A stretch of 21,346 bases of DNA from a virus. Of this stretch, positions 735 to 21,346 are shown in pieces. The notes below the pieces were generated by a model that was not told the origin of the DNA, searched no databases, and saw only the letters and a list, made by a program, of their open reading frames with translations. The translations under genes and the position numbers were made by a program. The stretch is taken from positions 1-21,346 of IMG/VR virus record IMGVR_UViG_3300023243_000565; one strand, given 5' to 3'. Every line of letters starts with the position of its first letter. The stretch's first letter is position 1.

Positions 735-2192
735 ATGCCAGTAAATGCAACACCGGGATTTGATTTGCAGCCAAGTGCGCAACAAACTCCATTAGCAACA
801 AACTACATAAGCAACTTTGATTTCTTAAATCAGTATCTTCCTGATACTTATGAAAAGGAATTTGAGCGTTATGGAAACAGATCAGTAGCATCATTCTTAA
901 GAATGGTTGGTGCTGAATTACCTTCAACTTCTGACCTTATTAAATGGACAGAACAAGGAAGGTTACACACGAAGTACCAGGCGGTAACTTCTTCAGGATC
1001 GATTGGTGCTGATTCGGCAGTTTGGACTATTCCAAACACGTCAACAAACTTTAACCCAGCATTAGGTGGGACATCTAGCCAAGCAGCTTTAAGAGCTGGT
1101 CAAACGGTTATGATTTCTGATAATAGCTCAAATTCTTCTGCACAGAACAAGGGTATTATTACTGTTGCTCCAACGGCTTCAAACCCGAATGTAGTAACAA
1201 TTGCTTACTATGAGTCTGCTGGTCAGACGATGGATGCAGGAATATCTTGTGATATTTTTGTATATGGTTCTGAATTCGCTAAAGGCGTAGAAGGAATGAA
1301 GGGTTCTTTAGAAGCTAACAACTATTTCTTCCAAAACAAACCAATCATAATCAAGGACAAGTATTCTGTTTCGGGTTCTGATATGGCTCAAATTGGATGG
1401 GTAGAAGTTGAAGGCGACAATGGAGTTGGGTACTTATGGTACTTAAAATCTGAGCATGAAACAAGATTACGTTTTGAGGATTATTTAGAAACAGCGATGA
1501 TTGAAGCAGTTCCTGCTGAAGCAGCGTCTGGAGCTGGAGATTACTTACAAGGCGTAGGTGCAGGACTTAGTGCTGTAAACGAGTCTGGTTCAGAAGGAAT
1601 TTTCTACGTTGTAGGAAATAGAGGAAATGTTTTTGGTGGTGGTAACCCTACTACTTTGGCACAATTTGATAACATTATTCAGAGACTTGATAAGCAGGGA
1701 TCTATTGAGGAGAATGTTATTTTTGTGGACAGACAGTTCTCATTTGATATTGACGATATGTTAGCTTCTCAAAACTCTTATGGAGATGGAGGAACTTCTT
1801 ATGGTTTATTTGACAATGACAAGGACATGGCATTGAATTTAGGTTTTACAGGTTTCCGTAGAGGTTATGACTTTTACAAGTCTGACTGGAAATACTTAAA
1901 CGATCCTACAATGAGAGGTGGTATAAATGCAGGAGCAGTTAATGGACTTTTAGTTCCAGCTGGTTCTACAACTGTTTATGACCAAGTCTTAGGAAAGAAC
2001 GCTAAGAGACCATTCTTACACGTTCGTTATAGAGCTTCAGAAACTGAAGACAGACGTTACAAGTCTTGGATTACTGGTTCTGCTGGTGGTGTTTCGACAA
2101 GTGATTTGGATGCAATGGAGGTAAACTTCTTGTCTGAAAGAGCAGTATGTACTTTAGGTGCAAACAACTTTTTCTTATTCCAACAAGCATAA
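735..2192 (+). CDS. Major capsid protein, crAss-like / HK97 fold
   Basis: 485 residues. This is the shell subunit of the head. The N-terminal block with YLPDTYEKEFERYGNRSV, then SFLRMVGAELP and EQGRLHTKY (about residues 34-82) is the pattern I recall from crAss-like and uncultured marine phage capsid proteins. The C-terminal block (RRYKSWITGSAGG then LDAMEVNFLSERAV) matches the same family. Between them lies a beta-rich stretch (about 95-180) suited to the E-loop and an inserted strand region, then a long P/A-domain segment. Length is normal for the family. The start is preceded by an A-rich leader (eight A in a row, then TCAAAATT), usual for Bacteroidetes, which rarely use Shine-Dalgarno sites. 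The gene follows the scaffold by 21 bases and is followed by a strong hairpin terminator, which fits separate high expression. I see no N-terminal propeptide that would require cleavage. Assignment is from remembered motifs and synteny. Confidence 0.9.
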   Translation: MPVNATPGFDLQPSAQQTPLATNYISNFDFLNQYLPDTYEKEFERYGNRSVASFLRMVGAELPSTSDLIKWTEQGRLHTKYQAVTSSGSIGADSAVWTIPNTSTNFNPALGGTSSQAALRAGQTVMISDNSSNSSAQNKGIITVAPTASNPNVVTIAYYESAGQTMDAGISCDIFVYGSEFAKGVEGMKGSLEANNYFFQNKPIIIKDKYSVSGSDMAQIGWVEVEGDNGVGYLWYLKSEHETRLRFEDYLETAMIEAVPAEAASGAGDYLQGVGAGLSAVNESGSEGIFYVVGNRGNVFGGGNPTTLAQFDNIIQRLDKQGSIEENVIFVDRQFSFDIDDMLASQNSYGDGGTSYGLFDNDKDMALNLGFTGFRRGYDFYKSDWKYLNDPTMRGGINAGAVNGLLVPAGSTTVYDQVLGKNAKRPFLHVRYRASETEDRRYKSWITGSAGGVSTSDLDAMEVNFLSERAVCTLGANNFFLFQQA

Positions 2193-4997: not shown

Positions 4998-7900
4998 ATG
5001 CCAATAATTAATACAAACTTTGTTGCAGGTAGAATGAATAAGTCTGTTGACGAGAGACTTTTACCTCCAGGAGAATATATTGACGCACTTAATGTGAGGT
5101 TAGGTTCTACGGAAACTACTGAGATTGGAGCTGTTGAAAATGCAAAGGGTAACTCTAGACTTACAACGCTTAGTTATAAGGGGCAAGATTTAAGTCCTGC
5201 TGCTGTATGTATTGGCGCGTTTCAAGACGGTGTAAGAGAAACTTTGTATTGGTGGGTACACGATGATGAAAACCAAGCTGCCTCTGACGGAGTAGTAGAT
5301 ATGTTAGTGTCATACAACACGACTAGTCAGGTTATAAATTATCACGTTATTACTGAAGCTTTATTAAATTTTAATACAGATTATTTAATTACAGGAATAA
5401 GTTTAATTGATGGTTTATTGTTTTGGACAGATGATTTAAATCCACCTAGATATATAAATATTCTTAGAAACTACGACTCTCCAGAGGACGATGTAGACAA
5501 AATAAAAGAAGAAGACATTAGTGTAATTGTAAAAATCCCTGGTTTTGAAGATGCAGTAGATAACGTAACGCCATTACCCGTGCCTAAAATAACATTGTTA
5601 AATGTTCCGGGTGGAGAAAACTACATTAAAAATAGATTTCTTTGTTTTGCTTATAGGTATAGGTATTCTGATGGGCAGTATAGTGCTACATCATTATTTA
5701 GTTTACCAGCGTTTTCAGCAAAACCTTTTGATTTTGATACTAAAAACTTTAATAATGCAGGTATGGAAAACCTGTATAATGGAGTCACTGTAGAGTATTC
5801 TACAGGTAGTAAGAATGTGGTGGAAATTGATTTACTTTTTAAGGACACTAACGCAAATACAATTAATGTAATTGAACGATTTATAAAAGAAGATTATGGT
5901 TGGGCAGATAATACTATACAATCATACGTTTTTACTAACAGTAAAATATACACTGTTTTAGGTGGAGATGAATTACTTCGACAGTACGATAATGTTCCTC
6001 GTCTAGCTAAGGCTCAGATAATACAAGGAAATCGATTAATGTATGGGAATTATGTTGATGGATATAACTTTACAACAGGTAGTTCTGAGGGTACTAGAGT
6101 GGCTTTAGATTATAACACAAAAATAGTTAACACACCAATACAGTCTCAGGAGTTGCCATTTGCAAGTTTTGGTACAGGACTTACTTACAGTATAGATCCT
6201 TCAGATAGTAAAAGCTATATAAATAATATCCTTACTTTTGATTTGTCTTTAACAAACGGAAAGTTAATAAAAGGAGCTTTCATTGGTTTCATATTTAATA
6301 TTGAAAGTGAAGGAACTGCAGTAGGTTCCGGTCAGAGTGATAATCCTGCATGGTTAGCAAATGATCAGTTTAAAAATGCTAATTTTACTTTAGAGGTAAA
6401 CATTACTTTAGATGATGATTACTCTTCAACGTATGATTTTCTTACTAGCGCTTTATTTCAAAATGCTATAGGAACAATTCTTAATACTAATTTTAACCCA
6501 TTGTCTACATCGGATCAAGGTTCTTCTTTGACTGATTTTTTTAACAATGAATTATCATCACCGTCAACTTCTTTTCAATTTTCTAAAACAAACAGTGGTG
6601 TTACTAGTTCTGTAATACAGCAGGGTTTTTTACTATCTGGTATATCTCCTGGGTCTGATACTTTTAATATACAGATTATAGGTATGCAGTATCAAAACAC
6701 AGATACAACACCCACAACTACAGATATTTACGAATATTTTAGATTTGTTAGTGGTGAAGCTGGTTTTAGTAATACGGTAAATACTGGTAGCTTACATAGT
6801 AACAGAGATTATGAAACAGGTATTGTTTATAGTGATGGTTTCGGTAGGTCTTCTACGGTTTTAGTTTCGGAAAGAAATACAGTTTATGTAGAGCCAGGAA
6901 ATAGTGATACCCAAAATACAATACAAGTAGCATTAAGTTCTCTTGCTCCATACTGGGCTGAGAGATACAAGTTTGTTGTTAAACCAAGTTTAGCAAATTA
7001 TGAAGTTATATACACTAATCTTTATTACGTAAGGCCTAGTGATAATATGGTTTTCTTTAAACTGGAGGGAGATAATGTAAATAAAGTAACAAAGGGTCAA
7101 ACCCTAATAATAAAAGCAGATGTTTCAGGGCCTCTATCAAGACTTGAAAAAGCTGAAGTATTAGAAGTTCAGGCTGAGGCTAGGGACTTCTTGGCGCTAA
7201 GTAGTGAGTTAGGTGAAGATTCTAATCAACTAGCAGGTTTATACATGCAAATGAAAAACCAAAATTTCGACATTGTTATACCTGAAGATTCTGTAATAGA
7301 ATATGGAGAAATGGTTGTTAGGTCATCAAGTAACGGATGTACTTCTGGTAGAAAAATAGCTTATCCTTGCTACACTCAAGATGTGGTAGGTGATAGTTCT
7401 GCTACAACTAATTACACTGTTCCTGCTGGTTCATCTGTAAAAGTAAAAGTAAGAGCTTTTCGTAACGATACTTTTAATGGTAGAAGTTGCCAGGAAATAT
7501 TATGGGAATGGGATCAGCAATATATTTCAAGCGATGACTATTTAGATTTAAGAAAATGGTGGGTTGGAGATAATATAAATCCTGTAATTGCAGACCCAGG
7601 AAACTTGTCGGATGAAACAACTATAAATTACATTCAGTCTTTAGCGAATCCAAGTGGTACTCCTGGAAATGATATACTTGATACTAAGGGTGTTGCGGAC
7701 AATGTTGAATGTGAAAGTTTTGAAGTAACATTTCAGTGGATACAAGGTGATTCTCAATCGGCTGATGACCCATTGTATTTAGGTGTAAGTTCAGGAATGC
7801 ACGGATGCTATAGACCTACACAGTCAAATAGAACTGCAGATCTTCATGTTGAGTTAATTGTTCAAAGAGCAAATACTTTAATGGTTTTTGAAAGCGAGCC

Positions 7901-9806
7901 TTTAGATGCGGATGCTGAACTATACTATGATGCTTCTGAATCTTTTCCTATTACACAGCCTGAAGGATTTCATTTGTCAGGAAATAATATTGGTTTAGGA
8001 GACCAAGACCAAACATCAAGTGTTGATGCTGTAGTTAATTTAAATTTCCAAGACTGTTTTACTTTTGGTAATGGGGTTGAGAGTTTTAAAATAAAAGATT
8101 CATTAGCTGGTAGAGCTATGGTTTTAGGCCAAAGAGTATTAGCTGTATCTAATCAAGATTACAAAGAAGCTGATAGGTTTGAGGGTATTACTTATAGTGG
8201 AGTTTACAGTAGTAATAGTGGTGTCAATAATCTTAATGAATTTAATTTAGGATTGGCAAACTTTAAAGACTGCGAAACTATATTTGGCCCAATACAAAAA
8301 ATGCATGCTCGTGAAACTGATATACTTGTTCTTCAAGAAGATAGAATAACTTACGTATTATCAAGTAAAAATTTAATTAGCGACAGTACTGGTGGAGGAG
8401 TTATCGCATCTGTTCCTCAAGTACTTGGAACTCAGATAGCTAGAATAGAAGAATATGGTATTAGTTATAATCCTGAAAGTTTTGCTTCTTGGGGTTCTGA
8501 TATGTTTTTCACTGATGTAAAAAGAGGTGCTGTTCTAAAGCTTAGAGGTACTAGTAGAAATAATGATTCGTTAGAAGTTATATCTTCTAATGGAATGAGG
8601 TCATATTTTAGAGATCAGTTTCACGAATCAATACAGACTCAGAAGTTAGGAGGATACGATCCTTATATGAATGAATATGTATTAGGAATGAACTGTACTG
8701 AGATACCTTTACCTCCAGAGGTTTCAGCTTGTGGATATACTCTTCAGAAAAACAATTTATTAAAAGACTCTGTAATAGTATCAACTATAGATTATGGCGC
8801 TGTAATTGGTGAGTCTAATATTTCTTATACTATTGCATCAGGTGGAAGTATAACTATTTCTTCTTTATGGAATGGTATTACTACTACTAGTGGCTTGCTA
8901 ACAGGTAATGGTGTATTCTCTTTTGATAAAACATTAAACACTCCTAGAAACGCTGTGGTAACGATTACTGCAATAACAGATTCTTCTTTTAATATAACAG
9001 CTGATTGCCCTACGGAAGTTCCTATAGAAGTTATAAAGGTGGTAATGAATTCTTCAGTAGATGCAAATGATTTTATACACACTGAATATAAATGGAATAA
9101 TTTAGTTGTAGTTAGTCCTATTGATTCGAGTCTTTCAACTCTTGGAAGTAATAATAAAATTGCATCTAATTATGTTTCTCAAATAGGAATTAGGTCTTTA
9201 GGTGTTTTTCCTTATAGTGGTACAGATATTACTATCAGGTCTAATAAGATTAATTTTGATGATTATGATTGGGTTGTTAATAGTGATAACTTTAAATACC
9301 TATCTAGTGATGTTTTGTTTTCGAATAACGAAGCAGATATAAATACTTTATTATCAACATCGGTAACAATACCAAACAATGAAGTATCAAATCCTTCAAT
9401 TGGATTGTATGAGGCTATTGTTCCTGGATTAGATCTACCAATAAATAATAAATATTTATATTTGATTTATGATTACAGAGAAACTAGTTGTCAGGAATTT
9501 TGTTATGACCCAGTTTCAGCTTCAGCAGCTTGTTGTGAATGTACTATTTCGTATACAGCATACCAAAGTAGCTCAATACAACAGAACAATAAAGTTGTTT
9601 GTGGTCAGCCTTTAATACAGACTTTCTATCATACAGGAACCGGTTCATTACCAGTTATAGGTGACTTTGTTTACTCATCATCAATTGGCCAACCTGGAAC
9701 AACATTAGCTCTTGGGCTATACCAGATTAGTGGAACGGATTATATAACAGTAAATAAATTTGGACTAGTTACAAAGGTAACTACTTGTCCAGTAAATCAA
9801 GTTTAA
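4998..9806 (+). CDS. Giant muzzle / stabilisation protein (P22 gp10-like position)
   Basis: 1602 residues, by far the largest tail gene. The N-terminus (INTNFVAGRMNKSVDERLLP, then GEYIDALNVRLG and IGAVENAKGN) is the signature I recall for phage stabilisation proteins, which in crAss-like phages form the muzzle closing the tail barrel, comparable in position to P22 gp10 and T7 gp12. The first 350 residues look like a beta-propeller-like core (ITGISLIDGLLFWTDDLNPP, FLCFAYRYRYSDGQYS). Long beta-rich regions follow, then a second core segment (AGRAMVLGQRVLAVSNQDYK, then YVLSSKNLI and IARIEEYGISYNPESFASWG), consistent with one fold interrupted by insertions. The C-terminal 100 residues hold a tight cysteine cluster (SCQEFCYDP then AACCECTI, about 1496-1517) and a module bounded by C1535 and C1597. 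The chain ends five residues after C1597, and the next gene starts at once with another such module. Motif recognition is from memory. Confidence 0.85.
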   Translation: MPIINTNFVAGRMNKSVDERLLPPGEYIDALNVRLGSTETTEIGAVENAKGNSRLTTLSYKGQDLSPAAVCIGAFQDGVRETLYWWVHDDENQAASDGVVDMLVSYNTTSQVINYHVITEALLNFNTDYLITGISLIDGLLFWTDDLNPPRYINILRNYDSPEDDVDKIKEEDISVIVKIPGFEDAVDNVTPLPVPKITLLNVPGGENYIKNRFLCFAYRYRYSDGQYSATSLFSLPAFSAKPFDFDTKNFNNAGMENLYNGVTVEYSTGSKNVVEIDLLFKDTNANTINVIERFIKEDYGWADNTIQSYVFTNSKIYTVLGGDELLRQYDNVPRLAKAQIIQGNRLMYGNYVDGYNFTTGSSEGTRVALDYNTKIVNTPIQSQELPFASFGTGLTYSIDPSDSKSYINNILTFDLSLTNGKLIKGAFIGFIFNIESEGTAVGSGQSDNPAWLANDQFKNANFTLEVNITLDDDYSSTYDFLTSALFQNAIGTILNTNFNPLSTSDQGSSLTDFFNNELSSPSTSFQFSKTNSGVTSSVIQQGFLLSGISPGSDTFNIQIIGMQYQNTDTTPTTTDIYEYFRFVSGEAGFSNTVNTGSLHSNRDYETGIVYSDGFGRSSTVLVSERNTVYVEPGNSDTQNTIQVALSSLAPYWAERYKFVVKPSLANYEVIYTNLYYVRPSDNMVFFKLEGDNVNKVTKGQTLIIKADVSGPLSRLEKAEVLEVQAEARDFLALSSELGEDSNQLAGLYMQMKNQNFDIVIPEDSVIEYGEMVVRSSSNGCTSGRKIAYPCYTQDVVGDSSATTNYTVPAGSSVKVKVRAFRNDTFNGRSCQEILWEWDQQYISSDDYLDLRKWWVGDNINPVIADPGNLSDETTINYIQSLANPSGTPGNDILDTKGVADNVECESFEVTFQWIQGDSQSADDPLYLGVSSGMHGCYRPTQSNRTADLHVELIVQRANTLMVFESEPLDADAELYYDASESFPITQPEGFHLSGNNIGLGDQDQTSSVDAVVNLNFQDCFTFGNGVESFKIKDSLAGRAMVLGQRVLAVSNQDYKEADRFEGITYSGVYSSNSGVNNLNEFNLGLANFKDCETIFGPIQKMHARETDILVLQEDRITYVLSSKNLISDSTGGGVIASVPQVLGTQIARIEEYGISYNPESFASWGSDMFFTDVKRGAVLKLRGTSRNNDSLEVISSNGMRSYFRDQFHESIQTQKLGGYDPYMNEYVLGMNCTEIPLPPEVSACGYTLQKNNLLKDSVIVSTIDYGAVIGESNISYTIASGGSITISSLWNGITTTSGLLTGNGVFSFDKTLNTPRNAVVTITAITDSSFNITADCPTEVPIEVIKVVMNSSVDANDFIHTEYKWNNLVVVSPIDSSLSTLGSNNKIASNYVSQIGIRSLGVFPYSGTDITIRSNKINFDDYDWVVNSDNFKYLSSDVLFSNNEADINTLLSTSVTIPNNEVSNPSIGLYEAIVPGLDLPINNKYLYLIYDYRETSCQEFCYDPVSASAACCECTISYTAYQSSSIQQNNKVVCGQPLIQTFYHTGTGSLPVIGDFVYSSSIGQPGTTLALGLYQISGTDYITVNKFGLVTKVTTCPVNQV

Positions 9807-11072: not shown

Positions 11073-11303
11073 GGTTCATCTCTTTATAAACTAAGTGATT
11101 GTAGTTCTAATTTATTTTACACTGTAGCTAATGACTATCCTGCTCAATTAGGAGATGTTATGCAATATCAAATTGGAACTCCAGGTTCCGGAGCTGTATA
11201 CTGTGGTGAAGTTGTAGACTTAAATCAAGGAGGACAAGCAGATGCTACTTTAGTAAACGGCCTTAAGTATGATTGTAATGATAGTGTACACTGTGCGCAA
11301 TAA
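9807..11303 (+). CDS. Muzzle-associated Cys-rich modular beta protein
   Basis: 498 residues, rich in Ser, Thr, Asn and Gly, with 16 cysteines by my count, high for a phage structural protein. Residues 1-55 form one Cys-bounded module. A cysteine cluster (ACGSCSISCG, 54-63) follows. Residues about 64-255 are a separate beta region with GAVVAYFYMGTSIADGVI, FTIVIPKTNLTINS and CPISLPSFSSS. Then come modules at 263-337 and 358-422 and a last partial one to the end (LFYTVANDYPAQLGDVMQY). I recall the GAV...DGVI and VIPK...LPSF patterns from C-terminal parts of very long stabilisation proteins in uncultured marine phages, so this gene looks like a detached part of the muzzle. It probably assembles on the outer tip of the tail and could contact the host surface. 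No membrane segment, signal peptide or catalytic motif is seen. Binding function is inference. Confidence 0.72.
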   Translation: MGVLGTYCFDGLNFSQASALFSDASLSVLADDGYYSQGGIVRQQLNGVLLKANACGSCSISCGNGVSVSISQNGFFDINFDVGNSIGAVVAYFYMGTSIADGVIANYDSNNYNRLTAKGNDGTILIDGSGANVDYAGIGNQNTGDPTYVGSNSSNIIRSYTNTNTTPGQCSPGDAPENYSYSGSSYVAQGTLNPLTVTNEMCGRASSGSPVFTIVIPKTNLTINSLNLKISAPACGTFFSYELDCPISLPSFSSSNASLTTDCDTTQNQTFYFVRNAVGTGTPFTLDTNTIPEVGNFVFIDENGGTYLNDNSDILYYVTGTTSIGVRNGVVISSQQCENNSSDPKTMGPTSTSRNEACSTTTTPNTAYFLNNIVAEGVTVFSDSNLNTPFVGDSGFYKLEDGKDKAIQIDSSGEIISPVFLCGSSLYKLSDCSSNLFYTVANDYPAQLGDVMQYQIGTPGSGAVYCGEVVDLNQGGQADATLVNGLKYDCNDSVHCAQ

Positions 11304-11323
11304 TAATAATAAATTATAAAAAA

Positions 11324-12142
11324 ATGTCTTTAAATTGTAGTAATAGTACAGTAACGTACAGTGAAAGTGCAAAAGGATTTCCTTCTTTTTACAGCTTTAT
11401 ACCAGAGTATATGATTGGTATGAATAGTTTTTTCTATAGCTTTAAAGAAGGTAACCTGTGGAGACACAATACAAATCCAGTGCGTAACAATTTTTATGGA
11501 GAGCAACATAAATCTACAATAACAAGTGTATTTAATCCTCAGCCCACACAAGCAATAAAATTATTTAAAACGTTATCGTATGAATCAACAACAACTGTAG
11601 ATAATCAGGCAAATGCTGCCTGGAGTTGTACTTATTTAAAAACTGATTTAACGGATGGTAATCCTGGATCTATGTTATCAACTTATTTTCAACAAAAAGA
11701 AGGGGAGTGGTTTAGCTACATAAGAACAAATGAATCAACGATAAACTTTAAAGCTAGGTCAGCAAATGGTATAGGAAACTGTACTGCTATTAGTGGTTTA
11801 TCTGATGATATATTATTAGAATTCAACGTTTCAGTTGGCTCTATTCTTAGTATTGGTGATTTAGTTTATGCTGCAAATATAGAGAACGGTTCTGTAGTTG
11901 GAATTCCTATAGCTGCTGGTATTGTAATTTCAAAAAACTCCAGCAGTATTTCTATAAATGCAACTCCTACACAGAACTATACAGTTCCTACTGTTGGTCA
12001 GTACATAATGTATATAAAAAATGCTGTTGCAGAGTCTACTGGAGCTAGAGGTTACTACTTAGAATTTAAGTTAGAAAATAATTCCTCAAATCCAGTTGAA
12101 TTGTTTTCTGTGGGCAGTAGCGTCATGAAAAGTAATCCATAG
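11324..12142 (+). CDS. Muzzle C-terminal-domain-like tail protein
   Basis: 272 residues. The N-terminal half has the series KGFPSFYSFIPEYMIGMNSF, FYSFKEGNLWRHNTNPVRNN, FYG, STITSVFNPQP, IKLFKTLSYES and KEGEWFSYIRTNES. I recall this run of aromatic motifs as the final conserved domain of stabilisation/muzzle proteins in marine phages, where it is usually fused to the main chain. Here it stands alone, with a beta module (SVGSILSIGDLVY, then TVPTVGQYIMYIKN) as its C-terminal half, related in style to the modules of the two genes upstream. The gene starts after four in-line TAA codons and an A-rich leader (TATAAAAAA). It uses TAG as stop, the only TAG or TGA stop in the window. It likely completes the tail tip together with the 1602- and 498-residue proteins. 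No enzyme motif is visible. Confidence 0.75.
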   Translation: MSLNCSNSTVTYSESAKGFPSFYSFIPEYMIGMNSFFYSFKEGNLWRHNTNPVRNNFYGEQHKSTITSVFNPQPTQAIKLFKTLSYESTTTVDNQANAAWSCTYLKTDLTDGNPGSMLSTYFQQKEGEWFSYIRTNESTINFKARSANGIGNCTAISGLSDDILLEFNVSVGSILSIGDLVYAANIENGSVVGIPIAAGIVISKNSSSISINATPTQNYTVPTVGQYIMYIKNAVAESTGARGYYLEFKLENNSSNPVELFSVGSSVMKSNP

Positions 12143-12162: not shown

Positions 12163-12573
12163 ATGGAATTACATATAAGAAGATTAGTTGAATCGGATTA
12201 CGATAATATTTTGTGTAAATGGTGGAAAGATTGGAGATGGACACCACCTTCTAGAGACTTTTTACCTAACGATGGAGTAGGCGGTATTATAGTTTACGAT
12301 GGAAATACTCCTGTTTGTGCAGGGTATGTTTATATTACCAATTCAAAAGTAGGTTGGTGTGATTGGATTATATCTAACTTTGAATATAAAGACAAGAGTA
12401 ATAGAAAAGAAGCTTTAAATGAGCTGATACGTGCTTTAACTGACACATTAAAAAAAGGTGGTTGTAAGTATTCTTACGCTCTTATAAAATCCAAATCTCT
12501 AATTGGAAATTATGTAAATAACGGCTATGTTGAGGGAGATAGTTACAATAAAGAAATGATAAAAATATTATAA
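12163..12573 (+). CDS. GNAT-like acetyltransferase-fold protein
   Basis: 136 residues, close to a minimal GNAT domain. The order of elements fits that fold: first helix with IRRLVESDYDNILCKWWKDW, strands 2-4 with GGIIVYDGNTPVCAGYVY and GWCDWIISN, a helix with KEALNELIRALTDTLKKGG, then strand 5 KYSYALIKS, helix IGNYVNNGYV and the last strand EMIKIL. The usual acetyl-CoA pyrophosphate loop (Q/R-x-x-G-x-G/A) is not apparent; the equivalent place reads DKSNRKEAL. It may therefore bind a different ligand, have weak activity or be structural. I recall small GNAT-like genes at this place, between tail and internal-protein genes, in marine podovirus-like phages. It starts four bases after a candidate promoter and ends one base before the next gene. 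Substrate unknown. Confidence 0.72.
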   Translation: MELHIRRLVESDYDNILCKWWKDWRWTPPSRDFLPNDGVGGIIVYDGNTPVCAGYVYITNSKVGWCDWIISNFEYKDKSNRKEALNELIRALTDTLKKGGCKYSYALIKSKSLIGNYVNNGYVEGDSYNKEMIKIL

Positions 12574-12574
12574 T

Positions 12575-13420
12575 ATGGCGGCAGTAACAGCATCAGTAGT
12601 AGGTATAGCAACAGGTCTTGCATCAGCAGGTATGAGTTTTAGTCAAGCAGCTAAAGCGTCTGATGCTGAATCTAAAGCATTAAAGGCTTCTGAAGAATTA
12701 ATGGAGGAGGCTAAAAAAGAAGCAGAAGTTAGATACCTAGAAGGATTAAATGTTCCTTTAGATGGATACGATGAAGAAGCTCGTGCAAACTTACAAGCTC
12801 AACAACAAGGGTTACAAGCTCTTCAAGAGGGTGACCCTAGAAATTTAGCTGCTGGTGTAGGTAGAGTTGGAGCAGCTGCAACTTTAACGAATGAAGGTAT
12901 TCGTAACGACAAGAATAGAGAGCTATATGATTTAGAAAAAGCTCAAGTATTAGAACAACAAGCAATAGGGCAAGATTTAAAAGATATGGCTGTTGGTGCT
13001 GCTGCTGATCAGCAAATGATTTCTCGTGATGCTGCTGAAAATAAAGCTGCTGCTCAACAAAGTGCATTTGCAGGTATAGGTCAAGCGGCTAGTTCTGCGG
13101 CCAGCTTAGTTCCATTATACGCGAAGTCAAAAACAGATAGAGATATTAGTGATATTTTAGGAAATACAGATACTGCTAATATGAGAATAATGGGAGATAA
13201 TCCTAATAGTAATAGTAATTTATTTGAAAAATACACATTAGCAGGTAACAATTCAGAGGCGTCTAAATATGCTCCTCAGATTAGTGGCTCTGCAGCTATG
13301 AGTAATTCTCAGATTATGCAGGAAATTACAGCAATGGGTTATACTGCGGAGGAACTACGTGCATTGAAAAAAGCTAAGAGTGGTTTTAATATTAACACGT
13401 CAGGAAGATTCTCTAGATAA
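12575..13420 (+). CDS. Ala/Gln-rich internal virion (ejection) protein
   Basis: 281 residues. The first 25 residues (AAVTASVVGIATGLASAGMS) are small, hydrophobic and glycine-bearing, a possible membrane-inserting helix. Residues about 28-190 are helical and rich in Ala, Glu and Gln (KASEELMEEAKKEAEVRYLE, NLQAQQQGLQALQ, KAAAQQSAFAGIGQAAS), coiled-coil-like. The C-terminus is more polar and Asn/Ser-rich. Size, composition and place, as first of three cargo genes after the tail genes, resemble small internal proteins such as T7 gp14, which are packed in the head and form part of the DNA-ejection channel in the cell envelope. That comparison is by character and order only; I see no sequence match. 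Start codon follows the previous stop by one base, indicating coupling. Confidence 0.68.
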   Translation: MAAVTASVVGIATGLASAGMSFSQAAKASDAESKALKASEELMEEAKKEAEVRYLEGLNVPLDGYDEEARANLQAQQQGLQALQEGDPRNLAAGVGRVGAAATLTNEGIRNDKNRELYDLEKAQVLEQQAIGQDLKDMAVGAAADQQMISRDAAENKAAAQQSAFAGIGQAASSAASLVPLYAKSKTDRDISDILGNTDTANMRIMGDNPNSNSNLFEKYTLAGNNSEASKYAPQISGSAAMSNSQIMQEITAMGYTAEELRALKKAKSGFNINTSGRFSR

Positions 13421-13426
13421 AAAATT

Positions 13427-15484
13427 ATGGCAGAAAATAAAAGTACACCACAGGCATCAAATAAATATTCTATTTACGCTCAGAGAAATGTAGAAAGCAC
13501 TCAAGTTGACTGGTCTAAAATAGCCAGTACTTTAACTAAAGGAGCTGAATCAATCAGAGATGAGAGGCAAGGTCGTAAAGACGCTATAGACGTAGCTACT
13601 CAGGATTCAATGGAGCAGCTTAGTAAGGTTGAAGATGTAAATAATCAAGATGCTGCTAGTTTACTTATTGATGGCTCAAGTATGTCTACTGAGTCTCTCA
13701 GAGTTCAATCAAATATGCTGAAACGTGGTTTAATAAAGCCAAAAGATTTTAAGCTTTTTATGCAACAACAAAAAAATGGGTATTCAAATTTAAACACAGC
13801 TGTAAAGGGCTGGGATAAATGGGCTACACAAGCAACTGAAAGGTTGGCTATTGCAAAAGCTACAAGTTCACCTATAGCAAGTGAGTTAGAGATTGAATTA
13901 AACAAACAGCTAGAAGGTTTAGGTAACTTAAAGAATAAAAAACTATGGACTAATCCTGTAAATGGCCAAATGCAGTTGGTTACTATGGGTAAGAATAAGG
14001 ATGGCATCTATAATGTTATGCCTGATTACAATACTGAAAAAGAAAAGTTTCAGAATCCAAACACTATGAATAACTTGATGAAGTTTAAGTTAGATAGGTT
14101 TGATATGAAGTCTGCGACAAAAAGAATTACAGACCAAACTGCTACAATTATAACTGCATACGAAGGTAATTATAATGTTTTATCAGGTGGTGGAGCGATA
14201 TATTCAAAAGAAAGTTTTAGACAGTTAGGTAAATTTGGAAAAGATTCAAATGGCAAAAAGCTAACATTTAAAGACTGGAAAGAAAACGAGATTGATGCTG
14301 TTGTTGGTAGCTCTTCAGAGACTAATAATTCTAATGCCGGTCAAGTGCTTGCTGGTAGAGGTTACAAATATGCTAGAACTAAAAAACAATTTAAGTCTCA
14401 GTATCCAAATCTTGATGAAAAATTCTTTATTCCTTACGAAACAATTTCAGGAAGACCAGAAATTACATTAACTTCTGCTCAACAAAAAGAGGCTAGAAAT
14501 TTTGTAAACAATCAAATTGAAGCTGGTATCGATGATAAATTAACAATATCTTCTGCTAAGGCTGGTCAACAAAAAAGACAAGACACAACAAACACCACTG
14601 ATATAAATGATGCGAAAAACAGAAGGGTTGCATATGCTGGTGATTTAAATAACCTTATGTCTGGGGACTCAGGAAAAGCTTCTGCTGTTGGTGAGGATAG
14701 AATAGTAGACATGAACAAAAGATTCAAAGAGTCTAAAAGTCAGTCAACTAAAGAGATACAAAAAATATCAAGAAACGCTGACGAGTTTGTTATCAAACAA
14801 AAAGAGAAAGGAAAAGATATATCTGTTAAAATACAGAGGTATGAAAAGGATGGTAAAGGTGGGTATGATTCTTCTAGACCAAGACCAGCAAAAGAAATAG
14901 CGAGAGAGCTTTACAGGCAAATACTTCCTGCTGATGCTACTGATATGTCATTTGATCAATTTTATCAAGATGCCATAGATGATGGGTTTAGTTTTACTCC
15001 AAGAATGATTGATAATGGTAGTGGTACTATGGTTCCTAACCCTGATTACAAAGGTGATGAAACTACTTCTACTACTGAAAACATAAGACCAATTGAATTA
15101 TATTCTTCAGGGAGTGATTATACTGATTTAAACTTCACGAAAACATTAGCTGATGAGTACGCTTTAATACCTAAAGGTAGAGATAATTTTGAAGCGGCTA
15201 CTCCTGTTGTAATGAAATCAGTTGAAAGAGGTTTATCTGCAATACCTGGAGCTAGAGGTATCACAGTGACCAGTAACGATGTAAGATTTGATAGTACTAA
15301 CGAGATTATTGTAAACTTCAATAACCCAGTTACTGGGAAGCCTGATAAAAAAGTTTTTAAATTTAATGAAGACACAACTAAACTTCAAGGAGATGTTGAT
15401 GTTTTTATTAATGAGCAAATACAATTGTACAACGATTCAATAGGAAGTGATATAAAAGGAAACGCATCAAGATTTAATAAATAA
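13427..15484 (+). CDS. Large internal virion / cargo protein
   Basis: 685 residues, mostly helical and polar, with no signal peptide, membrane helix or cysteine that I can see. The N-terminus (VDWSKIASTLTKGAESIRDE) and a repeated-helix middle region carry many Lys, Asn and Gln. A segment near LTSAQQKEARNFVNNQIEAG (about 345-364) is one I recall from cargo-like proteins of marine flavobacterial phages. The C-terminal third (YRQILPADATDMSFDQFYQD, then GRDNFEAATPVVMKSVERGL and IIVNFNNPVTGKPDKKVFKF) looks like a compact alpha/beta domain. Placed between the small Ala-rich gene and the giant gene, it occupies the slot of T7 gp15 and of the crAss cargo proteins, which are ejected with the DNA. No catalytic motif is visible, so only the virion-cargo role is proposed, by position. 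Confidence 0.68.
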   Translation: MAENKSTPQASNKYSIYAQRNVESTQVDWSKIASTLTKGAESIRDERQGRKDAIDVATQDSMEQLSKVEDVNNQDAASLLIDGSSMSTESLRVQSNMLKRGLIKPKDFKLFMQQQKNGYSNLNTAVKGWDKWATQATERLAIAKATSSPIASELEIELNKQLEGLGNLKNKKLWTNPVNGQMQLVTMGKNKDGIYNVMPDYNTEKEKFQNPNTMNNLMKFKLDRFDMKSATKRITDQTATIITAYEGNYNVLSGGGAIYSKESFRQLGKFGKDSNGKKLTFKDWKENEIDAVVGSSSETNNSNAGQVLAGRGYKYARTKKQFKSQYPNLDEKFFIPYETISGRPEITLTSAQQKEARNFVNNQIEAGIDDKLTISSAKAGQQKRQDTTNTTDINDAKNRRVAYAGDLNNLMSGDSGKASAVGEDRIVDMNKRFKESKSQSTKEIQKISRNADEFVIKQKEKGKDISVKIQRYEKDGKGGYDSSRPRPAKEIARELYRQILPADATDMSFDQFYQDAIDDGFSFTPRMIDNGSGTMVPNPDYKGDETTSTTENIRPIELYSSGSDYTDLNFTKTLADEYALIPKGRDNFEAATPVVMKSVERGLSAIPGARGITVTSNDVRFDSTNEIIVNFNNPVTGKPDKKVFKFNEDTTKLQGDVDVFINEQIQLYNDSIGSDIKGNASRFNK

Positions 15485-15489
15485 GAACA

Positions 15490-18400
15490 ATGAACGAAGA
15501 AGCTTTTGAATATGCTTACAGTCTTTTTACTCAAGATGGATATACAGGAACAATAGATGATTACAGGTCTTTAGTATCTAGCGATACTGATGCTGTATCT
15601 CATTCTTATGAGTTATTTAAAAAAGATAAATACTCAGGTTCAAGAGAGGATTTTGAGCAATTGTTAAAACCTGAAAAAAAAAATCAAGTCGACACCGTGG
15701 AGGAAACTTCAGATGGGGTGGAGGAAGTTACGGAATCGTTACAAAAAAATGGATCTTCGGATTCTTTAGGTCAAGAAGATAATGTACCTAAAATAAAAGT
15801 AGAGCAAGATGTAATTACTGATAGTTCTATAAATGGTATTGATGTAGAAAAACAAGACTTTGATAAATTTGTAAGTGATGAAGAGGAGATAAAGAAACAA
15901 ACTGAAGACCCATTTTCTTATTCTATGAATATTGTAGATGAGGCTTTAATAAATGGTAGCGAGGAGAATGCTGTTCCTTTAATGAATTATCACTTTAATC
16001 AATATGGTTTTAAATTTAAAGAGTCAGATATACTTGGTGATGGTATGGTTGTTAGTTCAGCATCACTTGATGAGAATGGAAAAAGAAAAGAACTTAGAGT
16101 AAACCTTGACCCATTTTCTGGATTTGGAGACAAGGAAGAGAAGGAAGCATTACAGAATTTTTTAAACGAGAACAAAGAAAACAGCAGGAAACTTCAGTCT
16201 GCTGAGAAAGGATACGCTAATTTAGAAAGAAAAATTACTGACCAAAAAGGAATAGACTCCTCATTAAATTCACTTAATACCAAAGCAAATGTTTTTCGGC
16301 AAGAAGTGCAAGGATGGTTAAAAGGTAACGCTGAGTTAAAAAAAAGAACAGAGTTTTTCGATGGATTATCTCAAGACGAAATAAATGACCCTAAAATAAG
16401 AGATGCTTTTAACTTATACATATCAGATACCAATAAGTCAGAAGCATTAAAGAAAAAAATATTAGCTACTGAATCTGAATTAAGGGATTCGGGTAGAGCT
16501 TTAGACCAAACAATGGGGCGTTATTCTGAGATGAAATCTGCTTCAGGAAACATGTCATCAGCTTCTTTGAATGCTATATGGTCTGGAATTGGAAGGATGG
16601 GTTCAAGTGCAATGAATTATGTCACTGACTTTATTGTAAACACAGGAGAGTTTGGAGGCGCAAGTCCTATAGGTTACAAGAAATTGTATATGGATACAGC
16701 GAAGAAAATGTTTGCGACAAAGAAATCTGACGATATACACGACTTAGAAACTCCTAACGAAAACAACGAAACAAGTAAAGGTAAGTGGAATAGTTATCTT
16801 GAAAATTTAACTGACGAGCAAAAAGACAAAGTAAGCGCTAAGACTAAAGATATTTTAGCAAAGGATAGAAAGTTTGACATCTACGACTTTAATGAAGATG
16901 GAGGTGCTGATTTAAAAGAGATTCCATCAGGAAGTAGATACTCTGATTACGCTAGAAAACAAAATGTAAAAAATCTTAGTAAGGACTCAATGGTAGAGCT
17001 TGCTAGAACGGCTCCTGTAAAATCATTTGGTGATGACGATGCCAGTGTAGAGTACAGCGACTTAGTGAAAGAAGGTTTTTGGGGAGGAGCGTACCTTGGA
17101 TTAATGGAATCGTTACCAGCTATGGCAGGCCCTTCGGGAAAAGCAGGTTTAGTAATGAGGACAGCTTCTATGTTTGGTCAAGTTTCTGACCACGTAAACG
17201 AAGAGATGTTTAAGAATCCTGAATTTGCAGATATTTCTGAGAACGAAAAACTAACTGTTGCTATTCCTTTAGGTATAACTGTAGGTGTTCTTGAGACTAT
17301 TGGTTTTAGGAATGTAGTGCAACAAAAAGGACTTATCAATAAGGTTTTATTAAAAGCTATAGGAAAGTATACTGGAGCAAAACAAGTGTCTAAGAGAGGG
17401 TTTACGGACGTTGTTCGTCAAGAGGTTGACGGAATGTTAGCTCGTGGTGTCCTTACCTTGGCTGCTGGTGGTGTTGCTGAATTTGAAACAGGTGCTGCAC
17501 AAGAGATTGCGGATATTGGTATAAAAGCTATATACAATGGTGCTAAAGAGAAGGATATGTTTCAGACTCCTGAAAGTATCAAGGATGGAATAAACCAAGT
17601 TCTTAAAGCAGGTGCGCAAGAGATGGTTGGTGGCTGGATAATGAGTACTCCTGGAGCAATGATAAACGCTGCTACTTCTAAGGATTTTACTCGTTTAGAT
17701 AATGGTGTGTTCGAGGTTTTTGAGGATATGATAGATGATGGTACTTCTACCAAGTTGATAAACATAAAATTAAAAGAGCAAATAAACGCAGGTGTAATTA
17801 CTGCCAGTGAAGCAAAAGAGCAAGAAGCTATTTTTAATAAGTTAAAAGGAGTCTACACTCAGATTCCTAGTGACTATTCTACAGATCAAAAAAAGAAAGC
17901 TTTAGGTCTATTGTTGAATAGACAAGGTTTAGAGCAATCTATAGAAGGTAAAGATGATGCTACGGTTAAGCCAGTAAAAAGAAAAATTGATGAGATAAAC
18001 GATTTACTTGAGGAAATAAGTAATAATGCTTACGAATCTAATGAGGCAACTACTGTAGGTCGTGTTGAGGAGGACGAGATTATTGATGAAGAAATTAAAT
18101 TAGAAACACCAAACCCAGAAAAAGATGGAATACAAGAGCAAGGCACAGATGGAGTGGATGCAAAAGAACCTACCGGAAGTAGCGAGGAGATCGAACCAGG
18201 AACCACAGATGACAGAACTACCGGAAAGAGTGATACCGAAATCGAAAACGAAAGCAGGGAAAAGGCCGAGAAGGAAATAGAAGTACTAGAGTTTAAGGAG
18301 AAAGATTTACAAGTAAAGTTAAAAGAAATAGCACAGAACGGAACTTCTCCTGAGACTGAAAACGGTCAATTATTTGATAAGGTTTCAGATGAATTGATTG

Positions 18401-21346
18401 AAGTAATTTCTGAAATTAAAAAAGCAAAAGATAATTTATTAAATCAAAAAGAAAATAAGGAGGTTGCAGAAATTGAAGAGGATATAGATGTTGTTGAAAT
18501 TAAACCTACAAAAAAACTTAAGAACGATTTTAAAAACAATAAGCTTAGCTATTTTGACAGAGTCGGAATGCTTTTTGCTATTGCAATAAAAAAGAAGAAC
18601 AAGAAAAAGTTAACTAGTTTTGAGGATACACTTTTCTCTAGCTCAGATTCTGCTTTAGTTAATGATATTCTTATTGAGGTAGATGAACGTGCAAGTTCTC
18701 AGTCACAAAGAAGACCATATGTAAAACCTGATTTTGATGTATTAGGAAAGAATCAAGAGGAACAAGACCAGCAAGAGGCAGAGGATTTTGATGCGTTATT
18801 AAATCCTGATTCAAAAGTAGAGTCAGACATTGATAATCTTCCTACAGCAGAGCTTGAGTTAATGAATGGTGAGACTGTTAAAATCAATCAAGAATCCAAG
18901 AACCTCGTCTTTACAAAGAAAGGAAAGGATGCTTCTACAGGTACAGATCTTACTACTAAGATTTTAAAGCAGGCGCAACAAGCAGCCAAAGCTATTGCAA
19001 AAATATTTCCAAGTATCACAATAATGGTGCATAGGGATAGTGAAATATATGACACTCTAGACCCTGATAAAAATTCTAGAGGACTATATGACCCTGCAAC
19101 AAACACTGTTCACATAAATTTAACCAATGGTAAGGCAGACTCAAAAACTGTTGCTCACGAGGTGTTTCATGCAGTGTTGCTTAACAAGTTAAAAATGAAC
19201 AATAAGGCAGCAATTGCTGCTACTAAGAAAATGGTTCAAGCCTTGTCTAGGTCAAAAACTTTAGACAAGAATACTAGAATAGCTTTAAAGAATTTTGCAT
19301 CAAACTATGATACGGAGGTTCAGAACGAAGAAACTCTTGCTGAGATTATAGGAATGATTTCTGATAACTACTTAAAGTTAGAGCCTTCATCAAAAACAAT
19401 TGTACGTAAGTGGATCGAAAAGATTGCTGATAAACTTGGTTTAGAAATAGGTCAATCTGAGAATGATGTAGTGGATTTGCTTAATGTAATTGCCAGTAAA
19501 GTAATGACAGGTACTGTTATTAGTGATGGTGACTTATCTTTTTTAGATAATTTCGAAGGAGGTAAAGATGTTAAAAATCCAATTAACGCATTAAAGAAAA
19601 GTATTGTTGGTAATTTTGAAATATCTTATACTGAAGACTCAAAAATTACAGACTACTTAAAGAATAAAAAAAGTACAGAGAAAAGAATTACTCAACCTGT
19701 GGATTTGGAATTTATGAGAGGATTAAGTTCCGCTCTTCAGTCTCCGGACGATATGATGGTTGGTCAACTTAAATACAAGGGTAAAGTTATTTTTGAAGGA
19801 CAAGGCGGTATATTTTTTGTAACAAAGTTTGGTGCAGTATGGGCGTCTGGTGACGTAAAAACAGCAAAAACTTTGGCAGACATGATAAATAGAAGTGTCA
19901 AAGAGAATGGAGGAAAAAGAGGTTTTTTAACTTTAACAAAAGGAACTGATGCAAAATTAGTTAGTAGTGCTTCTGGTGTCAACTCTACTTTAGCTATACT
20001 TGAAACAATGCTTGACGAAGGGTTGATTACACCAAGCGCTTTTAGGTCTGCTATTTCCACTACTGTCAGTAAGGCTGGAGGTAAAATAAACTTAAGACAA
20101 AGTGCGAAGGATTTAAAAACAGACGTTGATAAGTATTTTTCTGATTCAACTACAAGTACTTTTGCAAAGAGAGGAGTTGTTGTAAATAATATAGTTACTG
20201 AATTAGCTAAATCATTAAAAGCAGATAAGGCAGCTAAGGTAAAAATAATTGAGTTCTTAGGTGGAGATACTTCTAAAGGTCTTGGTGCTGGTGTTACAGC
20301 TAAATCACAATCATTAGTGGATTTAATAGCAAAGGTTGTTGGCGAAAAGCTCGTGAAAGGACTTAATACTGGAGATGTTTATGCTGTTATAGAAGTTGAA
20401 GGTGAGGTCGAAGCTGTCAAGGGAGACCATAAATCATACAAGGGGTTTATAAAACAAAAGAACGGAAATCCACCAATACTACATCTTATTCAAAAGAGAG
20501 AACATGGTCGTGAATACATTACAAGAGATTCAGGAAAAGTTTATACCGGCCCTGCTGTAGCAACAAATGAATTTGTAACATATAATCTTTCAAAAAATAT
20601 TAACTCAAAAAACGAGTTAACTCTTAGAAAGCAAAAAACAATAAAAGACAATGGAAAACCAACAACAAAAGAAGGAAACAGAAAATTCAATGAGCCACTA
20701 CAGGACGCAACAACAATTGCGAATAGAGTTGCAGAGAGAACGGGCATTAATTATGAAGAAGCTACAAGAATCGAAAAACTAGATATTGACAGGGCTAGGG
20801 AGATTGCTCAAATTTTTGAACAAACAGAACCAAACCCAAACGATAAAGATGTTAAAGAATCTTACGAAGCTTTAATTGATGAGACTATAGTTCAGTATGA
20901 AGAAATACTAGACGGTGGTTACTTGATTGAAATAAATAATGATGAGCCTTACCTGAACTCTAATAAGATGATTGATGACTTACGTCAAAAGAAAAATATG
21001 AGAATATTTTCTACTGAGGCAGGTTTTGGTGATGGGAAAATAACTGATGCGGAGAGAGCAGCAAATCCATTATTAGCAAAGACAAAATTCAAAGATAAAA
21101 ACGGAGTGCCATTATTAGCTAATGACATCTTTAGGTTTGTTCACGACTTTTTTGGACATGCGAAGATGGGTAATGGTTTTGGGCCTATTGGTGAAGAAAA
21201 TGCCTGGAACGTACACTCTAGAATGTACACTGAATTAGCAAGGGGTGCAATGACAACTGAAACTAGGGGTCAAAACTCTTGGGTTAATTTTTCAGGAGCA
21301 AATAAAGATGCATTTATATTAAGAGATGCCGCTAGAAAACTTAGAA
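15490..21346 (+). CDS. Giant multidomain virion cargo protein (3' end outside window)
   Basis: Translated by hand, the frame is open from ATG 15490 to the right edge: 1952 codons without a stop, five bases after the previous gene. Parts in order: a tandem repeat at residues 9-59; a charged N-terminal region; a Gly/Ala-rich hydrophobic region with segments near 531-555, 588-606 and 649-677, including AEFETGAAQEIADIG; an acidic Glu-rich linker (about 838-997); a zincin-type peptidase domain with HEVFH (H1223, E1224, H1227) and possible third ligand in NEETLAEIIG (E1281 or E1285); an alpha/beta region (about 1398-1700) with FMRGLSSALQS, GGIFFVTKFGAVWASGD, FLTLTKG, GDVYAVIEVEG and HKSYKGF; then a domain with HDFFGH (H1885, D1886, H1890), FGPIGEENAW and TTETRGQNSW. 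The layout fits polyvalent phage proteins carried in the head and injected to modify the host. Activities are inferred from motifs; the C-terminus is unseen. Confidence 0.85.
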   Translation, partial: MNEEAFEYAYSLFTQDGYTGTIDDYRSLVSSDTDAVSHSYELFKKDKYSGSREDFEQLLKPEKKNQVDTVEETSDGVEEVTESLQKNGSSDSLGQEDNVPKIKVEQDVITDSSINGIDVEKQDFDKFVSDEEEIKKQTEDPFSYSMNIVDEALINGSEENAVPLMNYHFNQYGFKFKESDILGDGMVVSSASLDENGKRKELRVNLDPFSGFGDKEEKEALQNFLNENKENSRKLQSAEKGYANLERKITDQKGIDSSLNSLNTKANVFRQEVQGWLKGNAELKKRTEFFDGLSQDEINDPKIRDAFNLYISDTNKSEALKKKILATESELRDSGRALDQTMGRYSEMKSASGNMSSASLNAIWSGIGRMGSSAMNYVTDFIVNTGEFGGASPIGYKKLYMDTAKKMFATKKSDDIHDLETPNENNETSKGKWNSYLENLTDEQKDKVSAKTKDILAKDRKFDIYDFNEDGGADLKEIPSGSRYSDYARKQNVKNLSKDSMVELARTAPVKSFGDDDASVEYSDLVKEGFWGGAYLGLMESLPAMAGPSGKAGLVMRTASMFGQVSDHVNEEMFKNPEFADISENEKLTVAIPLGITVGVLETIGFRNVVQQKGLINKVLLKAIGKYTGAKQVSKRGFTDVVRQEVDGMLARGVLTLAAGGVAEFETGAAQEIADIGIKAIYNGAKEKDMFQTPESIKDGINQVLKAGAQEMVGGWIMSTPGAMINAATSKDFTRLDNGVFEVFEDMIDDGTSTKLINIKLKEQINAGVITASEAKEQEAIFNKLKGVYTQIPSDYSTDQKKKALGLLLNRQGLEQSIEGKDDATVKPVKRKIDEINDLLEEISNNAYESNEATTVGRVEEDEIIDEEIKLETPNPEKDGIQEQGTDGVDAKEPTGSSEEIEPGTTDDRTTGKSDTEIENESREKAEKEIEVLEFKEKDLQVKLKEIAQNGTSPETENGQLFDKVSDELIEVISEIKKAKDNLLNQKENKEVAEIEEDIDVVEIKPTKKLKNDFKNNKLSYFDRVGMLFAIAIKKKNKKKLTSFEDTLFSSSDSALVNDILIEVDERASSQSQRRPYVKPDFDVLGKNQEEQDQQEAEDFDALLNPDSKVESDIDNLPTAELELMNGETVKINQESKNLVFTKKGKDASTGTDLTTKILKQAQQAAKAIAKIFPSITIMVHRDSEIYDTLDPDKNSRGLYDPATNTVHINLTNGKADSKTVAHEVFHAVLLNKLKMNNKAAIAATKKMVQALSRSKTLDKNTRIALKNFASNYDTEVQNEETLAEIIGMISDNYLKLEPSSKTIVRKWIEKIADKLGLEIGQSENDVVDLLNVIASKVMTGTVISDGDLSFLDNFEGGKDVKNPINALKKSIVGNFEISYTEDSKITDYLKNKKSTEKRITQPVDLEFMRGLSSALQSPDDMMVGQLKYKGKVIFEGQGGIFFVTKFGAVWASGDVKTAKTLADMINRSVKENGGKRGFLTLTKGTDAKLVSSASGVNSTLAILETMLDEGLITPSAFRSAISTTVSKAGGKINLRQSAKDLKTDVDKYFSDSTTSTFAKRGVVVNNIVTELAKSLKADKAAKVKIIEFLGGDTSKGLGAGVTAKSQSLVDLIAKVVGEKLVKGLNTGDVYAVIEVEGEVEAVKGDHKSYKGFIKQKNGNPPILHLIQKREHGREYITRDSGKVYTGPAVATNEFVTYNLSKNINSKNELTLRKQKTIKDNGKPTTKEGNRKFNEPLQDATTIANRVAERTGINYEEATRIEKLDIDRAREIAQIFEQTEPNPNDKDVKESYEALIDETIVQYEEILDGGYLIEINNDEPYLNSNKMIDDLRQKKNMRIFSTEAGFGDGKITDAERAANPLLAKTKFKDKNGVPLLANDIFRFVHDFFGHAKMGNGFGPIGEENAWNVHSRMYTELARGAMTTETRGQNSWVNFSGANKDAFILRDAARKLR
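15514..15666 (+). repeat. Tandem 30-residue repeat at N-terminus of the giant protein
   Basis: Residues 9-29 (AYSLFTQDGYTGTIDDYRSL...) and 39-59 (SYELFKKDKYSGSREDFEQL...) share the pattern [AS]Y-x-L-F-x-x-D-x-Y-[TS]-G-[TS]-x-x-D-[YF]-x-x-L at a period of exactly 30 residues. I recall this type of motif at the N-termini of large proteins in Bacteroidetes phages. It may be a small docking or packaging tag. The DNA has diverged well beyond direct repeat level. Confidence 0.75.
18106..18300 (+). other. T-poor, purine-rich linker-coding segment
   Basis: In 18121-18300 I count 19 T in 180 bases (about 11%), far below the surrounding sequence, with unusual ACC, ATC, GCC and CGA/CCA use (ACCGGA occurs twice). 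It encodes an acidic, Glu/Gly/Thr/Asp-rich, probably disordered linker between the hydrophobic part and the peptidase part. I found no alternative long frame within it. Confidence 0.55.
19156..19170 (+). other. HEVFH zinc-peptidase motif within the giant gene
   Basis: HEVFH fits HExxH, the zinc-binding and catalytic motif of zincin metallopeptidases. It is preceded by a strand-like segment (NTVHINLTNG) and a helix start (KTVAHE). About 53-58 residues downstream, EETLAEIIG supplies a Glu in a helix as in gluzincin-type families. Motif is seen; activity is inferred. Confidence 0.68.
21142..21159 (+). other. HDFFGH putative metal site within the giant gene
   Basis: HDFFGH fits H-[DE]-[LIVF]-[LIVMFY]-G-H, the core of the signature holding two iron-ligand histidines of aromatic amino acid hydroxylases. 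Further acidic residues lie at E1902/E1903, E1915 and E1924. The flanking text (NDIFRFV before, FGPIGEENAW and TTETRGQNSW after) is what I recall as a conserved phage domain without known function. Relationship to the hydroxylases is a hypothesis. Confidence 0.45.

Follow-up and report, generated by a model that had tools for sequence, protein, structure and literature searches.

Phage 'polyvalent proteins', very long chains of unrelated domains encoded beside virion genes, have already been described as a class (Iyer, Burroughs, Anand, de Souza, Aravind 2017, PMC5512222); they are marked by a zincin-like peptidase, by module shuffling and by the ART-PolyVal, LPD38 and LPD22 domains, and one phage-type MPTase clade is described as bearing a conserved His where strand 2 ends. 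The cargo delivered into the cell ahead of phage gene expression is largely unassigned, and most polyvalent modules are without known activity. In the crAss-like phage PhicrAss001 the muzzle is gp44, and gp45, gp46, gp47, gp49 and gp50 are cargo proteins detected in the virion by mass spectrometry, the giant ones being related to RNA polymerase (PMC10172136). Cellulophaga phage phi38:1 (Pervagoviridae, Callevirus) has the gene order portal-gp092-capsid gp093-gp094 to gp096-gp097-gp098-gp099-gp100-gp101, which ends in the 1691-aa gp101, a match to a PHROG virion structural protein; 'structural protein' in the records of phi38:1 and of Flavobacterium phage elemo is the wording of their annotators. 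Further points of comparison are the three consecutive internal proteins of T7 (gp14-gp15-gp16), which rise in size and follow the tail genes, and the giants of Synechococcus phage MinM2 (2803 aa, annotated RelA/SpoT) and Planktothrix phage Pag-Yong1, the latter already annotated 'large polyvalent protein'.

The locus compared with these systems is a 21,346-nucleotide stretch (the window), the whole of the single viral fragment in IMG/VR record IMGVR_UViG_3300023243_000565, whose genes all lie on the + strand and whose last gene is a giant open frame. We consider it probable (about 0.78) that this gene encodes a delivered polyvalent cargo protein. New here are a large family of HDxxGH domains and, in many giants, a doubled N-terminal unit followed by KKK, the unit differing between phages.

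Results

The giant frame and its relatives

From the ATG at 15490 the + frame is free of stops up to 21346, a length of 1952 codons plus one base, as had been noted from the sequence beforehand. The chance of 1952 open codons, calculated from the base composition, is ~3e-72. Stops number 58 to 250 in the five remaining frames of this stretch. The end of the record coincides with the end of the frame, and the giant gene (15490..21346, +) is therefore truncated by the contig end, with the C-terminal third of the giant lying beyond the window. The same gene is one uninterrupted frame of 2976 aa at 50% identity in one relative (L003) and one frame of 3234 aa in another (L004; 41% identity over residues 1089-1952), and a third (L002) matches the N-terminal half, residues 1-1008, at 82% identity. 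Read-through of the gene in these independent contigs makes an assembly artefact, one of the outcomes that the earlier reading had named as fatal to it, unlikely. The frame is a genuine gene and encodes the front portion of a larger phage protein; by adding the C-terminal part of L004 we expect the complete protein to have ~3,300 aa. In a further relative (L005:6736-15725) the giant gene is split into several frames, with a change near 7977-7992 and further pieces later, so that this copy is either decayed or affected by sequence errors.

Gene order around the giant

A capsid-type virion protein (735..2192, +; phrog_13704) places the contig, by sequence family, among the crAss-like flavobacterial podophages. 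Tail proteins come next. A 1602-aa tail protein (4998..9806, +; phrog_14478) is a relative of phi38:1 gp097, and a 272-aa protein (11324..12142, +) contains the C-terminal domain of the crassvirus muzzle (PF25729, E 3e-14, exceeding the curated cut-off) and aligns to the C-terminal part of gp097. Since both proteins align to the single gp097, the muzzle appears to be split in this phage, and the 1602-aa protein is probably its N-terminal part. A 498-aa protein sits between the two muzzle pieces (4998-12142).

Between the muzzle genes and the giant lie a 281-aa Ala-rich protein (12575..13420, +), in the position of the smallest cargo or ejection protein, and a 685-aa protein (13427..15484, +), directly upstream of the giant and in the position of the second cargo protein; both may well be cargo. 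This arrangement recalls T7 gp14-gp15-gp16, with the difference that the 281-aa and 685-aa proteins showed no profile similarity to gp14 and gp15 (hhalign probabilities 0.9% and 0.2%). Taken together, the muzzle domain, the phi38:1 gene order and the PhicrAss001 cargo identify the giant, as far as gene order can tell, as the last gene of a crAss-like tail and cargo group. The sequence-only reading had made it the last gene of a cargo group, and both the PF25729 match and the phi38:1 order, with its long final protein, bear this placement out. From the same position the giant would be packaged in the virion. The likeness to PhicrAss001 gp45-gp50, in cargo genes that come after a crass-type muzzle and in large virion-stored proteins, concerns proteins that were measured in that phage and are assigned by position in this one (PMC10172136). 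The giant cargo proteins of PhicrAss001 are RNA-polymerase-related, whereas no RNA polymerase match was found anywhere in the window, which is a fragment. Phage phi38:1 gp101 occupies the equivalent place and likewise begins with a doubled tag and then KKK, but it lacks all three enzyme-like modules described below (MP, MID and HD).

The gene following the 272-aa muzzle piece encodes a 136-aa acetyltransferase-like protein (12163-12573, +) that has no Pfam match and whose Manatee Spring homologue is annotated as an N-terminal acetyltransferase subunit. L004, L005 and MW202828 likewise keep it among their structural genes.

The doubled N-terminal tag

All of the features previously named in the chain (tandem tag, Gly/Ala segment, acidic linker, zinc-peptidase motif, alpha/beta region and HDxxGH domain) were recovered. 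The protein opens with a doubled tag (15490..15675, +) made of two 31-residue units (15490-15582 and 15583-15675), directly followed by a lysine cluster, PEKKN (~15673-15684, +). In the window protein the signal is modest, with a self-alignment score of 58 against a 99th percentile of 57 for 912 inner control windows, and the N-terminal doubling is much stronger in relatives: duplication scores above 99% of the inner control windows in 50 of 114 non-redundant giants, and a lysine cluster just after the unit pair is found in 78 of the 114, compared with 18% of inner windows. The unit types bear no visible relation to one another (LYxxLxxxGYTKSxDEF, LRDFVATSNSGKY...FPEL, PPSDAV, PPLPSGYEP, KKPWEK and DPLGIKK), and phi38:1 gp101 carries ELDEFGIPVKK twice, though it is without every other module. 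Among the gathered loci, the 30-residue tag type is found only at the starts of giants, with the exception of one marginal match and the split L005 gene.

The simplest reading of this pattern is that the doubled tag would serve as a lineage-specific docking or packaging signal, which makes it a concrete candidate for cargo selection in crAss-like phage packaging. A literature search with limited terms found no report of a doubled packaging tag, and a doubled N-terminal tag is likewise absent from the passages covered of the polyvalent-protein paper (PMC5512222). Two tandem units followed by KKK also open, for example, the giants of L055, L265, L217, L281, L285, L170 and L326:17422-17560, where the layout is conserved and the sequence is not. 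The giant of Maribacter phage Panino (L008:31735-31774) has a frame that opens with KKNPNQ immediately after a stop, so its tag may sit in a different frame, or its start may have been assigned wrongly.

Segments and modules of the chain

Downstream of the tag, a Gly/Ala-rich segment (17092..17769, +) has a single hydrophobic peak at 17251-17307 (residues 588-606) and is a candidate membrane-contact region. It is followed by an acidic low-complexity linker (18007..18486, +) with a net charge of -30 over 160 residues (~840-999), and a further acidic linker spans residues ~1080-1119.

The next module (MP; 18940..19527, +; residues 1151-1346) has the conserved motifs of a zincin-like metallopeptidase: an HExxH, here HEVFH (19156-19170, +; residues 1223-1227), and a downstream EExLxE (19324-19353, +) that would supply the further Glu ligand. 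H69, E70 and H73, together with E126/E127/E131, are invariant in five relatives and near-invariant in 44. An invariant His also precedes the HExxH in relatives, recalling the conserved His of the phage-type MPTase clade (PMC5512222). In an AlphaFold2 model of residues 1151-1690, which covers MP and the following module (pLDDT 78-80), the MP part aligned with PPEP-2, anthrax lethal factor, Certhrax, SPRTN-like proteins and collagenase at VIA-align Z scores of 4.7-6.0, below the caution line of 8. From its motifs and this model, MP is likely a zincin-like peptidase. The following module (MID; 19627..20544, +; residues ~1380-1685) is a conserved alpha/beta region with relatives in 72 viral stretches and an invariant Trp, within VWAS (19837-19848, +).

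We found more than 10 module orders in ~230 related frames, among them MP-MID, MP-HD, HD-MP, HD-MP-MID and MP-MID-HD; these loci were found by searching for the modules themselves, and the module counts are thus not population frequencies. L003 is a clear case, in that HD is missing exactly between MID and the C-terminal part common with L004. The median length of complete frames with these modules is 2804 aa. Giants that bear HD also have ART-PolyVal, LPD38, LPD22, GNAT or DUF3293 domains, the first three being shared with polyvalent proteins (PMC5512222), and BFVD relatives are named polyvalent and head-morphogenesis proteins. The part of the protein inside the window, itself incomplete, has no Pfam match to LPD, ART-PolyVal or MPTase-PolyVal models, some of which its HD-sharing relatives do match; an LPD38-like C-terminus in L003 and L004 gave no profile signal, and the PADLOC defence-protein library gave no match.

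With two or more unrelated domains per frame (MP, MID and HD), varied module orders and adjoining late virion genes, these proteins have the properties of the polyvalent class. The earlier reading of the giant as an injected multidomain effector stands in part: it does combine several unrelated domains whose activities are mostly undescribed, but the kind itself is described, in PMC5512222 and in the annotation of the Pag-Yong1 homologue. It differs from the described proteins in that its HD and MID match no Pfam LPD model. The MinM2 and Pag-Yong1 giants share the HDxxGH domain with it at 37% identity, and the MinM2 giant also has LPD38 and a weak ART-PolyVal match, but these phages belong to another lineage and their giants have an otherwise unrelated architecture.

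The HDxxGH domain

The last module in the window (HD; 20662..21346, +; residues 1725-1952) is cut before its conserved FAxQKxxLLP end. It contains the motifs HDFFGH (21142-21159, +; residues 1885-1890), GEENAW (21190-21207, +) and TETRGQNS (21256-21279, +). Across 69 diverse sequences 16 columns are invariant (Q78, Y97, F157, R158, H161, D162, G165, H166, F173, G177, E178, A181, H185, M188, T201 and Q204), and E74, E200, Q252 and K253 are nearly so. A scan of viral contigs gave at least 590 stretches encoding HD, and 200 more matches lie in phage records, 187 of them from mycobacteriophages, where Flabslab gp100 is HD as a stand-alone protein of 433 aa. On plasmids HD was found on four actinobacterial plasmids only.

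No Pfam or NCBIfam model matches HD, and its PHROGs entry is one of unknown function. The AlphaFold2 model of the domain is confident (pLDDT 95.3, pTM 0.92), and independent BFVD models of HD relatives agree with it (TM up to 0.84). Solved structures gave no match by sequence profile, nor by Foldseek at E 0.001, and none of 821 chains reached Z ≥ 2 against the model, which does not in itself prove a new fold. As judged by its conservation and its model, HD is a widespread, strictly conserved enzyme-like domain without a family name or a solved-structure match. Its core-enzyme-like conservation, its single-domain form, its confident model and its spread over at least 590 viral loci and 187 mycobacteriophage records make it directly testable at the bench.

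Single-domain HD is rare in cells: a search of two families, ~300 genomes each, gave 2 and 1 matches, and these 3 matches in ~600 genomes include two query genomes. Three actinobacterial genomes, among them Streptomyces xanthophaeus and Micromonospora tarensis, have the HD gene within one conserved cluster (L105:2507-10817, L106:2840-11065 and L115:2518-10833), whose order is S-adenosylhomocysteine hydrolase (AdoHcyase), an MFS exporter, the HDxxGH protein, a class V aminotransferase/desulfurase, a methyltransferase, a Cys/Met-metabolism PLP enzyme and a homocysteine S-methyltransferase. A literature search with limited terms found nothing on this cluster. In Ruegeria haliotis (L099:5848-8212) the HD gene, a DUF3293 gene and an AdoHcyase-like gene stand side by side, and DUF3293 recurs as a domain in two phage giants, one of them that of elemo. 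The AdoHcyase, DUF3293 and methyl-cycle neighbours tentatively suggest that HD is an enzyme for a small molecule, close to the metabolism of methyl groups or sulfur amino acids.

Discussion

The gene order and the modules suggest a course of events for the delivered cargo protein. It would be a late product, expressed together with the virion genes, and would be kept in the particle, to which the doubled N-terminal tag may target it. By analogy with crAss-like virions, it might then follow the two smaller cargo proteins through the muzzle into the host envelope or cytoplasm, helped by the Gly/Ala-rich segment. There the zincin-like peptidase, to judge from its class, could cut the chain itself or a host protein and so free or activate modules, and the freed HD, probably a metal-dependent enzyme, would act on a small molecule in the cytoplasm.

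The main competing explanation gives the giant a chiefly structural or ejectosome role, comparable to that of T7 gp16 or P22 gp16: it would form or line the channel through which the DNA enters, and its enzyme-like domains would be minor or decayed. Its place as the third of three consecutive proteins (281 aa, 685 aa and the giant) after the tail genes is that of gp16 in T7, a hydrophobic Gly/Ala-rich region is present, and phi38:1 gp101 does without all three enzyme-like modules in the equivalent place, so that another part of the chain may hold the essential role. Decay, however, would leave neither the 16 invariant columns of HD nor the HExxH kept in MP, and module swapping fits effectors; we therefore regard this explanation as unlikely, while noting that an ejectosome role and delivery of cargo are compatible. 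Large size and a late position would also suit a tail fibre, a tape measure or some other long structural protein of an ordinary kind, but no fibre or tape-measure family was matched, the chain carries a peptidase and enzyme-like modules, and a phage with podovirus-type tail genes needs no tape measure, all of which makes an ordinary structural protein extremely improbable.

Two module assignments were weighed in the same way. MID could be a YTH-like reader of modified nucleic acid, in which case the giant, once inside the cell, would bind nucleic acid of the host or of the phage. The cage Trp of YTH domains lies in the strand following the first helix, and the invariant Trp of MID is found in the same placement in the model, residues 233-540 of which align with many YTH domains (YTHDF1/2/3 and MRB1) at Z 4.6-6.0 over 112-134 residues. 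These Z scores are below 8 and the pLDDT of the MID model is only 78; moreover, profile similarity to YTH (0.7%) and EVE (0.05%, from a set of 2 sequences) was not beyond shuffled controls, and the MID HMM had no PDB match. Without support from profiles, the weak structural resemblance of MID to YTH domains is only a lead, and we find a YTH-like function doubtful. For HD, the candidate was a distant relative of the aromatic amino acid hydroxylases, 2-His-1-Glu iron enzymes, with HDFFGH as the metal site and E1924 as the third ligand. Bacterial members of PF00351 carry HDVFGH or HDFFGH, with a Glu ~41 residues further on compared with 34 in HD, and hhalign aligned the motifs of HD and PF00351 with a probability of 31-44%. 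When the motif was kept and the other columns were shuffled, however, 126 of 150 controls scored at least as high, so that the signal is that of the motif alone; no profile similarity beyond H[DE]xxGH places HD in PF00351. The Foldseek list for HD also contains no aromatic amino acid hydroxylase, although absence from the list is no proof. Such a kinship is very unlikely.

Returning to delivered cargo as the preferred account of the giant, we put the odds that HD is an enzyme slightly above even. For its substrates, methyl- or thiol-cycle metabolites are the leading guess from gene neighbours in few genomes, and one of low probability. A fuller proposal is also improbable: HD may be a hitherto unrecognized enzyme family, perhaps of novel fold, which phages bring in at the start of infection and which alters metabolites of the S-adenosylmethionine/homocysteine cycle or thiol metabolites, with a rare single-domain bacterial use in a methyl-cycle biosynthetic cluster. 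If this were true, HD could, for instance, undermine defences that depend on methylation or on nucleotide signalling.

A compact version of the giant was also observed, a protein of ~472 aa that combines HD with a Gly/Ala-rich N-terminus (L073, L078, L079, L081-L086 and L090). In L081, a 7.3-kb contig, its gene adjoins a terminase-like gene.
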